DNA of 64,000 bases from Sporolactobacillus sp. THM19-2 (GTDB lineage Bacteria > Bacillota > Bacilli > Bacillales > Sporolactobacillaceae): contig NZ_SEMC01000001.1 in assembly GCF_004153195.1 (NCBI RefSeq), positions 186,001 to 250,000 on the forward strand, read 5' to 3'. Both the position numbers and the translations under genes were made by a program. This document shows, piece after piece, positions 4,140 to 8,097 of the stretch (position 1 is the stretch's first letter; each line of letters starts with the position of its first letter). The notes below the pieces were generated by a model. That model had not been told where the DNA came from. It saw nothing but the letters and a program-made list of their open reading frames with translations, and made no database searches.

Positions 4140-4167
4140 TTGACAATAGGTGCTTTTCATTTATACT
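4140..4167 (+). promoter_or_regulatory. Sigma-A promoter of the ADP-ribosylglycohydrolase operon
   Basis: TTGACA (4140-4145), 16-base spacer, TATACT (4162-4167). The predicted start of transcription is near 4174, giving a leader of about 160 bases that contains the perfect inverted repeat at 4219-4252. Confidence 0.7.
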
Positions 4168-4218: not shown

Positions 4219-4252
4219 GTTCAACCTGATTGAAAATTCTATCAGGTTGAAC
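4219..4252 (+). promoter_or_regulatory. Perfect 12-bp inverted repeat in the operon leader
   Basis: GTTCAACCTGAT (4219-4230) and its exact complement (4241-4252) flank a 10-base AT-rich loop. There is no T-run after it, so it is a poor intrinsic terminator. Its place about 45-80 bases into the predicted transcript suits a repressor operator or an RNA structure acting on the operon. No regulator gene is adjacent. Confidence 0.55.
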
Positions 4253-4336: not shown

Positions 4337-5347
4337 ATGATAAAAGATCGAGTACTCGGCGCTTTATATGGACAGGCCATCGGGGACGCCATGGGTATGC
4401 CGTCAGAACTTTGGCCGGTACAAAAGATCCGGGCATGTTTTGCAGGCAGAATGACAACATTTCAGGATGGCCCGAAGTCGAATCCTGTCGCCAGAAATTA
4501 TACGAAAGGCCAATATACTGATGATACGAACCAGGCCTTTGCGATACTGGATGCACTGATTGAGAACCACTGGATACCGGACCGGCAAATAATCGTGAAG
4601 CATTTGATGAAATGGGCATACGCTGCCGACGCGTTTAACAGAAACATTCTGGGACCGAGTTCCAAAGCGGCGCTTCTGGCCATTCAAGACGGAAGGGATC
4701 CGAAATCGGTGACCGATCAGGCATTAACCAACGGCTCTGGCATGCGGATTGCACCCATCGGAACCTTATTTGATCCAGGGCACACGGATGAATTGATCGC
4801 AATGGTAGACAGCGTCACTCGGGTGACCCATTCGTCGGACGTTGCGATTTCAGGGGCGGCGCTCATTGCCGGAGCGGTGTGTGCCGCTCTGGCATTTGAG
4901 CATTGGGACGATGTTATTGATTACGCGATTGATGTTCAGAACAGAGCGTTCAAACTGGGGTCACCGACATGGGCGGCATCCGTCCGCGAACGCCTGTTCA
5001 TTGGTCTTGACCTGGCGCATAAATACGTAGATGATCAGTCAGCGTTCGAGAAAGCTATTTATGAAACAGTCGGGACCGGAACACTGGCCAGTGAATCCAT
5101 CCCGGCTGCAGTGGCCATTGCTTATTACGCACGGGACGTCAGGAGGTGTGCGCTGCTCGCGGCCAATCTCGGCGGCGACACGGATACGATCGGTGCGATG
5201 GCGACAGCGATATGCGGCGCTAAAGCAGGGTTCGGCAGCATCGATCCTGACTGGACAGGTTTAATTGATTCAGAAAACAGACAACATTGTATTCCAAATT
5301 ACGCGGAAGCCATTATGAAATTCAGAGAAGGAAACAACGAATCATAA
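4337..5347 (+). CDS. ADP-ribosylglycohydrolase family protein (DraG/YegU-like)
   Basis: A 336-residue hydrolase of the ADP-ribosylglycohydrolase fold, which cleaves N- or O-glycosidic bonds of ADP-ribose or related ribosides with two magnesium ions. Both metal-binding motifs are intact: TDDT at 61-64 and GGDTDT at 279-284, near the usual start GALYGQAIGDAMG (8-20). It is the first gene of an operon with an NCS1 permease and a PfkB sugar kinase. That combination resembles E. coli yegT-yegU-yegV, where a transporter, a DraG-like hydrolase and a PfkB kinase are grouped. I infer uptake of a ribosylated base or modified nucleoside, cleavage, then phosphorylation of a product. A role in removing ADP-ribose from proteins is less likely here because no ADP-ribosyltransferase is nearby. 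Confidence 0.85.
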   Translation: MIKDRVLGALYGQAIGDAMGMPSELWPVQKIRACFAGRMTTFQDGPKSNPVARNYTKGQYTDDTNQAFAILDALIENHWIPDRQIIVKHLMKWAYAADAFNRNILGPSSKAALLAIQDGRDPKSVTDQALTNGSGMRIAPIGTLFDPGHTDELIAMVDSVTRVTHSSDVAISGAALIAGAVCAALAFEHWDDVIDYAIDVQNRAFKLGSPTWAASVRERLFIGLDLAHKYVDDQSAFEKAIYETVGTGTLASESIPAAVAIAYYARDVRRCALLAANLGGDTDTIGAMATAICGAKAGFGSIDPDWTGLIDSENRQHCIPNYAEAIMKFREGNNES

Positions 5348-5398
5348 AAAAGTTGGGTTTTGTTCGCGCGTGGTAAAAAAGAAGGGGGAAAGTGGGCA

Positions 5399-6784
5399 AT
5401 GAACAACGATGAAGAAATTTTAGTTCCTGAAAAGGACAGGACGATCAGCGGGCGTGATTTATTTTTCAACTGGTTCGCTGCAAATATCGGCATTATGGGC
5501 ATTGTTTTCGGTGCGATGGTCGTCAGCTATCGCCTGAGTTTCTTACAGGCTGTGCTTGCATCACTTGTCGGCGCGCTGTCTTTTCTCATCGTTGGCTGGG
5601 TCGCTGTGATTGGTGATAAGGCGGGAATTACGACGTTCAAAATGTCCCGTGCCGCTTTCGGTTTGGAGGGAAACAAAATTCCCAATGGTGTCGCGTGGAT
5701 CAACATGGTCGGCTGGCTCGCCATTAATATCGTCACCGGGACGCTGCTGCTTGTCGCCTTGTTTGACGTGCTGCATATACCCCGGGCCCCGTTTTCTACA
5801 GCGGTCGCACTGGCTGTGTTTTCAGCCTGTGTTCTTCTGTCCGGACTGGTAAAAGAACGTGTCATCGCAACGATCCAGACCTTTCTTTCTTATCTTTTCG
5901 GCATACTGACTTTGTTTATCCTCATCTTACTTGTTATGAAGACACAATGGAACGAAGTATGGACGATGGAATCAGGCAGCTGGATGGGTGGATTTTTACC
6001 CGCTGTTTCGATTGTCGCCGCCGGTTCGGGCATCAGCTGGTCGATGAACGCCGCCGACTGGGGAGCTTATGTTAAACCGGAGACTTCGCCGCACAGTACG
6101 TTCTGGAACACGACACTGGGCGGCGCGGTTCCACTGTTTCTCCTGATGGTTGCCGGTGTACTGCTCAGCACAGCAGAACCAGGACTTGCCTCAGCGGATA
6201 ATCCATTTGAAGTCATGTACCGGATGCTCCCGTCCTGGATCGCTGTGATTTATTTTCTCGTGGCGGCAGGCGGTCTGATTCCTCAGTGCATCATCAGTCT
6301 TCGATCGGCGCGGATCAATTTATTGACATTAGGAATCCATGTCTCGCAAAGGACTTCACTCGTCGTTCATGGCCTGATCGTCGTCCTGATTCCGGTGTTT
6401 GTGTTATTTATCAGCGGACGTTTCTTAGCTAATTTTCAATTGTTTCTCGGTTTGCTTGGGATCTGTTTAGTGGCCTGGGTGGCTGTGTTTCTGACGGACA
6501 GCGTGCTTAACCGTCAAAACGGGAAAGGATATCGTGTGTCTCTGCTCGTTCCAGAGACCGGTCGTCGGGTCAATTGGCGTGCAATCGTTTCCTGGCTGGT
6601 CGCCGTTATCGTCGGTTTCCTGTTTACGAACAACGCGCTGTTTACCGGTCCCTTTGCCCGTGGGATATTCAGAGATAACAGCCTTGGTGTTCTGCTCAGC
6701 GGCGTCGTTGCTGCAGTCTGCCTTTGGCTCATAAACGGCAAAGGAGAAAAAGATTTTGATCATGGAAAAAATGAAAGCCAATAA
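5399..6784 (+). CDS. NCS1-family nucleobase/nucleoside permease
   Basis: A 461-residue membrane protein with about 12 hydrophobic segments, resembling cytosine permease/allantoin-type NCS1 cation symporters. The N-terminal cytoplasmic stretch PEKDRTISGRDLFFNWFAANIG leads into TM1. A run of PSWIAVIYFLVAAGGLIPQ and IVSWLVAVIVGFLFTNNALF marks later helices. The frame is open from 5360, but the ATG at 5399 has an AAGGGGG site and is the probable start. It lies 51 bases after the hydrolase gene and overlaps the kinase gene by 29 bases, so the three are surely co-transcribed. It probably imports the substrate of the neighbouring hydrolase. The exact ligand is unknown. Confidence 0.85.
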   Translation: MNNDEEILVPEKDRTISGRDLFFNWFAANIGIMGIVFGAMVVSYRLSFLQAVLASLVGALSFLIVGWVAVIGDKAGITTFKMSRAAFGLEGNKIPNGVAWINMVGWLAINIVTGTLLLVALFDVLHIPRAPFSTAVALAVFSACVLLSGLVKERVIATIQTFLSYLFGILTLFILILLVMKTQWNEVWTMESGSWMGGFLPAVSIVAAGSGISWSMNAADWGAYVKPETSPHSTFWNTTLGGAVPLFLLMVAGVLLSTAEPGLASADNPFEVMYRMLPSWIAVIYFLVAAGGLIPQCIISLRSARINLLTLGIHVSQRTSLVVHGLIVVLIPVFVLFISGRFLANFQLFLGLLGICLVAWVAVFLTDSVLNRQNGKGYRVSLLVPETGRRVNWRAIVSWLVAVIVGFLFTNNALFTGPFARGIFRDNSLGVLLSGVVAAVCLWLINGKGEKDFDHGKNESQ

Positions 6785-7649
6785 ACAGACGTTAATCATC
6801 GGAGCCGCTGTCCTCGATATTCTTGTCAAAGTGGACAACTTGCCGAGAACGGGCGAGGATGCAACAGGCGATCTGCAGAAAATCGCTGTCGGTGGGTGTG
6901 CCTATAACGTCAGTCGGGTGATGAGTGCCCTTGGCGGCGGCCATGTGCTACTTGCCCCGATCGGGAAGGGCCTGTACGCGGATATCATTAAAGCCGACTT
7001 TGCAAAGCATGGCATTGAGAAAACGATTGAAGAGGATTCCGGAGACAATGGGTGGGATGTATCATTTATCGAGAAATCGGGTGAACGGACCTTCCTGACG
7101 ATTCCGGGGATTGAAAAGCAATGGAAGGCTTCATGGTTCGATCAGATTGATGTTGAAATTTATGATTACATCTATGTGTCGGGCTACGAGTTGGAAGGGG
7201 ATTCCGGCCCGGTGATTCTGGAAGCATTAAAGAAAAGGAAACCCGACAGCAGGTTGCTTTTTGATGCAAGTCCGAGAGTTTCGTACATTGACCGCGAGCT
7301 CCTGGATGAGATAATGGCTCCCGGAACGTTGATCCACTGCAATCGGGATGAAATGAATGCATTGGCACCGTCGGCAGATTCCGTCGAAAATGCCGCAGAA
7401 ACCCTGTATGCCCGGACACACAATCCGGTAGTGATTACACTTGGCGATAAGGGCTGCTATTTTCGGGACAGTAAGGATAAAGGGTTTGTTCCCGGCAATA
7501 AGGTTAACGTCGCAGATACGATCGGAGCCGGAGACGCCCATTGCGCCGGATTGATCTGTGCATTGTCAGCAGGCAGCGGTACTCGCGAAGCGGCACGGTT
7601 TGCCAATGGGGTTGCCGCGAAAGTCGCAGGAAAGCATGGTGGCGCGTGA
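6756..7649 (+). CDS. PfkB-family carbohydrate/nucleoside kinase
   Basis: A 297-residue ribokinase-fold kinase. VGGCAYNVSRVMSALGG (about 45-61) is the N-terminal PfkB signature. DTIGAGDAHCAGLI (about 253-266) carries the anion-hole GAGD with the catalytic aspartate near 260. AAGGAG at 6741-6746 fits the TTG at 6756 (9-base spacing) better than the ATG at 6762, so either could be the start. The gene overlaps the permease gene by 29 bases. As third gene of the operon it most likely phosphorylates the ribose or the nucleoside imported and cleaved by the first two products. E. coli YegV and pseudouridine or inosine kinases are the nearest analogues by context. Confidence 0.85.
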   Translation: MIMEKMKANKQTLIIGAAVLDILVKVDNLPRTGEDATGDLQKIAVGGCAYNVSRVMSALGGGHVLLAPIGKGLYADIIKADFAKHGIEKTIEEDSGDNGWDVSFIEKSGERTFLTIPGIEKQWKASWFDQIDVEIYDYIYVSGYELEGDSGPVILEALKKRKPDSRLLFDASPRVSYIDRELLDEIMAPGTLIHCNRDEMNALAPSADSVENAAETLYARTHNPVVITLGDKGCYFRDSKDKGFVPGNKVNVADTIGAGDAHCAGLICALSAGSGTREAARFANGVAAKVAGKHGGA

Positions 7650-7675
7650 TGATGTAGGTTCTGAAATTATTTTAT

Positions 7676-8097
7676 GGCAAATCTGAAGTCGTATGGTCAA
7701 AAATCAGGGACAATTTTCCCCAGTATGAAAAATAAGGGTGGATTAAAAAAATGACAAAAGTAAACCAGGGAGGTGACCTGGGATCCGCTCTTATCGGGGG
7801 GGATCCGGCTAAGCACAGCATCAGATGAATAGACGGAAAAATTCCGCTTACTTAGTAAAATGAAATGAAAAACAATTAAAATAGACGGAGAGATCCCGTC
7901 TATTGAATCAAAAAAAGGGAAAATGGAGCTTTTCCCCTGGCATAATCGGAAAATCTCCGCTTACTTCTCCTCTGAAAAGTGTGCCGCTCTGCTTCTAACC
8001 GAAAAATCTCCGCTTATTTTACTTTATGCTCGTGACTCCATTAAGGACAAAACACCTTATTTACAAGTAAATGGGGTGAAAGCCCTTGCAAGGTGGG
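7676..8097 (+). repeat. Dispersed ~400-bp hairpin-rich repeat, copy 1
   Basis: It aligns along its whole length with 19081-19455 (same orientation), beginning GGCAAATCTGAAGTCG and ending near GAAAGCCCT. Inside it a short palindromic motif of the form CGGAAAAATTCCGCTTA recurs four times (near 7834, 7886, 7947 and 8000), plus perfect stems at 7881-7888/7896-7903 and 7917-7923/7930-7936. No open frame is shared by the two copies, so it is non-coding. Its nature (MITE-like relic, processing signal, other) is unknown. Confidence 0.85.

Follow-up and report, generated by a model that had tools for sequence, protein, structure and literature searches.

A DraG-fold hydrolase, NCS1 permease and PfkB kinase operon of Sporolactobacillus sp. 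THM19-2 with a probable role in pyridine-nucleoside salvage

A three-gene operon was analyzed in a 64,000-nucleotide stretch of the Sporolactobacillus sp. THM19-2 genome (NCBI RefSeq assembly GCF_004153195.1, contig NZ_SEMC01000001.1, positions 186,001 to 250,000 of the forward strand; hereafter the window). Its genes encode a DraG/ARH-fold hydrolase, an NCS1-family permease and a PfkB-family kinase (below DraG, NCS1 and PfkB). Judged from sequence and gene neighborhoods, the operon probably salvages a pyridine nucleoside (estimated probability about 0.6), most likely nicotinamide riboside (NR) and less likely nicotinate riboside. NCS1 would import the riboside, DraG would cut its N-glycosidic bond at a two-metal site to release nicotinamide and ribose, and PfkB would supply ribose-5-phosphate to the pentose-phosphate pathway. 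Nicotinamide would then be passed through a nicotinamidase (PncA-like) and PncB to nicotinamide adenine dinucleotide (NAD), both genes being located elsewhere in the genome. The cleavage and kinase steps may also run in reverse order, with the kinase acting first and the mononucleotide being cleaved; substrates and reactions are predicted at every step. An earlier note on this DNA had proposed a compact uptake-cleave-phosphorylate module for a riboside, which is supported. Among the substrate classes it had listed, a pyridine nucleoside was favored by gene context; ADP-ribose breakdown products and modified tRNA or rRNA nucleosides were not.

Linkage to NAD-salvage genes

Genes of NAD salvage were found beside the module in several relatives (loci are designated L and sampled genomes G). 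Two near-identical Lactiplantibacillus plasmid stretches with identical NAD proteins carry the order NrtR-PncB-PncA-DraG-NCS1-PfkB; the L. plantarum plasmid annotation reads NUDIX-nicotinate phosphoribosyltransferase-isochorismatase-DraG-NCS1-PfkB. Shorter sets were NrtR-PncB-DraG-NCS1-PfkB (L019), PncB-DraG with a 19 bp gap (L022) and NrtR-DraG (L023, L148), and PncB is divergent from the module in L142; L142 and L148 were obtained with the wider genome sample described below. L024 holds an NrtR-like gene, a major facilitator superfamily (MFS) carrier, NadC, DraG, NCS1 and PfkB with gaps of ≤70 bp. NCBIfam equivalog cut-offs were exceeded by PncB (L095, L022, L142) and NadC (L024). In a wider sample, the first seven NrtR-like places listed all had a PncB place no more than 150 bp away, supporting their designation as NrtR-type.

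This wider sample consisted of 350 Lactobacillaceae genomes (DraG at E ≤1e-60, PncB at E ≤1e-150, NrtR-like at E ≤1e-40), in which DraG was found in 35, PncB of this type in 98 and NrtR-like proteins in 109. An NrtR-like or PncB gene lay within 3 kb of DraG, at 38 to 2104 bp, in 5/35 genomes (G333, G337, G338, G514, G634), compared with 0.14 expected (Poisson 3.5e-7); three of the five (G333, G337 and G338, the genomes of L019, L023 and L024) were known before sampling. The fair figure is therefore that for the 18 of 35 genomes new to the sample, with 2/18 positive against 0.05 expected (P 0.0014). G335, with an NrtR-like gene 8.9 kb from DraG, was left uncounted. PncB was present in 23/35 genomes with DraG and 75/315 others (Fisher 1e-6), and NrtR-like proteins in 21/35 and 88/315 (Fisher 2e-4), neither value being corrected for kinship; a broken PncB in G339 was scored as lacking.

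PnuC, whose family comprises NR transporters, directly follows PfkB in 4 of the 80 best relatives defined below (L040, L042, L043 and L044, from two Clostridium genomes, Epulopiscium and Lonepinella). The two tested against TIGR01528 (L043, L044) scored above its cut-off, and the one compared with the solved NR transporter 4QTN (L042) matched at E 1.3e-37 over residues 6-226 of 237.

Part of the NAD gene set was searched for in the host genome. NadA was found nowhere in the host genome by a search that was positive in 12/14 control genomes, and the sole match to the NadR model was ClpX and was rejected. The host PncB (contig 43) is 50% identical to the plasmid PncB and exceeds the equivalog cut-off; a PncA-like protein (contig 58) is 44% identical to PncA of the plasmid operon. 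The host thus apparently must take up vitamin B3 and, having PncB and a PncA-like protein but neither NadA nor NadR, would by the genes tested use NR only after cleavage.

Proteins and control region of the operon

The three genes are contiguous and on the same strand (Table 1). For NCS1, the ATG at 5399 is the most likely start, as it has GGGGGA at a better distance than the TTG that opens the frame. Either PfkB start (TTG 6756 or ATG 6762) falls within the 3' end of NCS1, so the two genes overlap. Pfam scores were 199.7 bits for ADP_ribosyl_GH on DraG (cut-off 26.2), 123 bits for Transp_cyt_pur on NCS1 (cut-off 23.5) and 143.5 bits for PfkB on the kinase (cut-off 25.8). The families and tight coupling described in the earlier note were thereby confirmed, as was its statement that the hydrolase has all metal motifs: E24, T61-D62-D63-T64, H165, D281, D283 and T284, the ligands of the two-metal site, were invariant in 26/26 aligned rows and align with ARH3.

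Table 1. Positions of the operon genes and candidate control elements in the window.
Feature	Position	Strand	Details
DraG/ARH-fold hydrolase, YegU homologue	4337..5347	+	ATG 4337, GAGGAAG upstream; PF03747; predicted nicotinamide (or nicotinate) riboside N-glycohydrolase
NCS1-family permease	5399..6784	+	Open frame from TTG 5360; PF02133; predicted riboside importer
PfkB-family kinase, YegV homologue	6762..7649	+	Open frame from 6756; PF00294; predicted ribose or riboside 5-kinase
Promoter-like site TTGACA-16-TATACT	4140..4167	+	11/12 consensus matches; consensus match only
Inverted repeat, candidate operator	4219..4252	.	Perfect 12-bp arms, 10-bp spacer

The AlphaFold model of the hydrolase (predicted local distance difference test, pLDDT, 96.7) matched MJ1187 and ARH3 best in the PDB, with DraG lower, and the DraG equivalog TIGR02662 gave 60.5 against a cut-off of 337. 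One match, 7arw, is ARH3 with alpha-NAD+, so the DraG/ARH fold can accommodate a nicotinamide riboside unit. By sequence alignment, the ARH3 adenine/diphosphate loop with F143 and G147-S148-Y149 is shorter and replaced in the window hydrolase and is not kept in the 26 rows, which fits a smaller predicted substrate.

The kinase (pLDDT 93.1) has ketohexokinase and ribokinase as its nearest PDB entries. It matched 25 NCBIfam models and passed none, including ribokinase TIGR02152 (104.9, cut-off 299.65) and pseudouridine kinase PRK09850 (40.5, cut-off 540); although outside the ribokinase model, it may act like a ribokinase. D97-N98-G99, with W or Y as the next residue, is invariant in its family, and ribokinase differs at these positions. 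NCS1 scored 77.9 with CytX TIGR02358 (cut-off 309.85) and 72.6 with NCS1 TIGR00800 (cut-off 353.1). NR transport by an NCS1 carrier has a precedent in yeast: PMC6837554 describes the NR transporter Nrt1 as a homologue of the NCS1 protein Thi7, and also includes Nrt1 with the thiamine transporters.

The single promoter of the earlier note is plausible for the promoter-like site upstream of DraG. The scan gave 6 such sites compared with 4.3 (standard deviation 2.3) in shuffles, so support for this one comes from its own score and position. The inverted repeat shares its layout in the window (AACCTGAT), with 8-bp core arms and a 10-bp spacer, with L005/L155, two stretches of one genome that carry AACTTGTA-N10-TACAAGTT upstream of DraG. 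A GntR gene adjoins DraG in L005/L155; none does so in the window. No second genome match to the 26-bp core was found at 0 or 1 mismatch. A genome search for a regulon with the operator pattern gave the operon's own site alone at 0 or 1 mismatch; at ≤3 mismatches it gave 51 places, compared with 2 for the reversed pattern, a poor control. A NiaR-like site upstream of DraG was set aside as weak: ACCTGTCTTGACAGGT in L141 fits the NiaR type I consensus (TGT-N4-ACA, as given in a passage of PMC7713382), is perfect in L141 only, and the arms had been derived from that site itself. Rfam gave no match in the window at the gathering threshold.

Conservation and transporter exchange

Relatives were collected by a protein scan of GTDB genomes; the best 80 of 238 DraG relatives were kept, and neighboring genes were located by tblastn within 3.5 kb of DraG. 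PfkB was found near DraG in 77/80 (exceptions L010, L083, L088). The transporter was NCS1 in 34, YegT-type MFS in 37 and PnuC in 4; none of the three was found in L010, L068, L081, L083 and L088 (5/80), of which the L081 contig ends just upstream of DraG and L068 had both DraG and PfkB found by tblastn. Since the DraG-PfkB pair or the NCS1 triplet recurs across many genera, the operon is more than a chance arrangement. The earlier note had asked for a check on lack of conserved association; this was run, and the association was conserved.

The note had also read the likeness to E. coli yegTUV as convergent assembly, which was rejected. The window DraG is a homologue of YegU (42-44% identity) and the window PfkB of YegV (32-33%). 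A midpoint-rooted tree of DraG alone (36 rows) grouped the YegT loci with NCS1-bearing loci of Morganella and Photobacterium in one starred clade, and because YegT and NCS1 rows mix there, one DraG-PfkB pair with a changed transporter is indicated. E. coli yegTUV and the window operon thus look like one homologous pair with exchanged transporters. The PnuC loci formed one clade among NCS1 loci. The window protein belonged to a starred group of ten rows, in which each named row is from Lactobacillaceae; L136, also among the ten, stems from the Lactobacillaceae genome sample.

Within the host's own family, 5/26 genomes had any match, four of them close and two of those from one species, and the triplet is present on plasmids of lactic acid bacteria. 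From this occurrence and plasmid carriage, the operon was likely spread by transfer. Viral contigs held 2 distant loci and phage records 18 loci, one of them in the order DraG-PfkB-NCS1 on a faecal record of 9.9 kb. One plasmid stretch carries an annotated nucleoside hydrolase gene (L171, 1-341) on the opposite strand, ending ~4.6 kb upstream of DraG. The NCS1 gene of Bacillus mediterraneensis is broken into two frames (L029, 9011-10402). A 66-aa frame on contig 29 of the host genome (L002, 9638-9754) matches the C-terminal region of DraG-family proteins and is a possible remnant.

Distant relatives (L089-L092, L096; 31-37%) have ATP-binding cassette (ABC), phosphotransferase system (PTS) or NCS1 transporters and were not used in the argument; L090-L092 and L096 lie outside the clade in the DraG tree, and L089 is not among its rows. 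L089 and L090 are plasmid-borne in Alphaproteobacteria; there the DraG-PfkB pair is accompanied by the genes of an ABC importer (a binding protein, an ATPase and two permeases) and, in L089, by a neighboring GntR gene. On an Enterococcus raffinosus plasmid (L091), a DraG homologue stands beside a beta-glucoside-type PTS transporter, and the stretch shown lacks PfkB.

Alternative substrates and known systems

Several observations weigh against NR or nicotinate riboside salvage. No NrtR-like or PncB gene was found within 3 kb of DraG in 30/35 sampled Lactobacillaceae loci or beside the triplet in 4/6 plasmid stretches from lactic acid bacteria (two of the four are cut off ~1.1 kb upstream where the record begins, and L173 and L176 come from versions of the same strain), and the neighbors scanned around the window operon included no NAD gene. 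NrtR was the best family for the NrtR-like proteins of L095, L024 and L023 with scores of 49, 48.5 and 44.6 (NCBIfam cut-off 400), as was nicotinamidase for the PncA-like proteins of L095 (51.3) and the host (45.3; cut-off 174); all of these scores are far below the cut-offs, and the nicotinamidase step is therefore uncertain. The PnuC loci, forming one DraG clade, represent three lineages at most (L040 and L042 are close relatives), and members of the PnuC family can transport other cargo. E. coli has NadR, so NR cleavage is not forced there. In two Secundilactobacillus genomes, the DraG-NCS1-PfkB triplet is preceded at a distance of 155-245 bp by a thiM-thiD-thiE run (L016, at 5533-7836 and named by NCBIfam; L017, same layout), and the nucleoside phosphorylase DeoD is encoded downstream, beside NCS1, in L026. 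The E. coli regulator YegW, also called GgaR, is reported in PMC10819704 to sense ADP-glucose. A literature search that excluded subscription papers yielded, among the matches listed, no paper tying this hydrolase to NR; one paper listed, PMC4067076 (Chlamydomonas), contains both terms "ADP-ribosylglycohydrolase" and "PfkB".

A kinase-first route, which overlaps with the favored reading, is tentatively possible: PfkB would phosphorylate O5 of the riboside, and the DraG-fold enzyme would cleave the mononucleotide to base and ribose-5-phosphate. Known DraG/ARH enzymes bind ribose with a phosphate on O5, the D97-N98-G99 and W/Y residues could contact a base, and the pseudouridine pathway runs from PsuK to PsuG. 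Against this order, ribokinase and ketohexokinase are nearest to the kinase by sequence and fold, ahead of pseudouridine kinase and adenosine kinase, and with NR the route would make nicotinamide mononucleotide and then destroy it. Another nucleoside, purine or modified, with the NAD linkage a local add-on in some lactic acid bacteria, is unlikely. YegT is annotated as a nucleoside permease in E. coli and Salmonella plasmid records, and the DeoD neighbor and the 30 loci noted above point the same way, but DeoD-type enzymes can also cleave NR, and NrtR-like, PncB, PncA-like, NadC and PnuC genes repeatedly adjoin the module, in lineages separate from one another.

The thi run could instead indicate salvage of a pyrimidine or thiazole riboside related to thiamine, in keeping with the weak similarity of NCS1 to CytX and the listing of Nrt1 with thiamine carriers (PMC6837554); the run is confined to two loci of one genus at that gap, and with no Rfam match in the window there is no thiamine pyrophosphate riboswitch, making this very unlikely. 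Equally improbable is the role proposed for yegTUV in E. coli, in the metabolism of ADP-glucose or glycogen. Passages of PMC10819704 have YegW released from DNA by ADP-glucose and list a yegV deletion as reducing glycogen, but in them none of the three proteins is given a reaction; the annotated stretches name no glycogen gene, although no search was aimed at such genes, and the GSY diphosphate loop of ARH3 has not been retained. Least probable, to the point of being nearly discounted, is the classical removal of ADP-ribose from proteins: fold and metal site are shared, but a permease accompanies DraG in 75/80 and PfkB in 77/80 relatives, the score with TIGR02662 is far below its cut-off, and no ADP-ribosyltransferase is among the operon's three genes.

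Pyridine-nucleoside salvage offers a concrete, testable substrate for a widespread module that includes E. coli yegTUV. If correct, it would imply use of a vitamin-B3 riboside by lactic acid bacteria, in which plasmids also carry the module, and would reassign some DraG/ARH-fold enzymes from the de-ADP-ribosylation of proteins to nucleoside catabolism; "ADP-ribosylglycohydrolase" annotations can then mislead. On the most far-reaching reading, which is improbable, a large branch of the fold (YegU and relatives) would act on free NR and not on ADP-ribosylated protein, and bacteria would have a further NR route in which the riboside is imported and cleaved and both halves are recycled. The DraG/ARH fold prefers the alpha-anomer, and in the boldest form of this reading the preference would have been kept and alpha-NR, a damage form of the vitamin that may be unusable by NR kinases, would be cleared or recycled.

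Among known systems, yegTUV resembles the window operon in having the homologous hydrolase and kinase adjoining an importer, and differs in that importer, which is of the YegT-type MFS in E. coli and NCS1 in the window. Pseudouridine catabolism by PsuT-PsuK-PsuG follows the same logic of importer, PfkB kinase and glycosidase, but with an unrelated glycosidase family, a C-glycoside substrate and the kinase acting first. PnuC-NadR salvage shares the presumed substrate, NR, whereas NadR phosphorylates it intact. ARH3 and DraG ADP-ribosyl hydrolases have the same fold and two-metal site; the GSY diphosphate loop of ARH3 and the preceding F143 loop are absent from the window hydrolase. NR cleavage itself is known from yeast Urh1, which, as described in a passage of PMC8910321, acts on the substrate presumed here but belongs to the nucleoside hydrolase family and not to the DraG fold.

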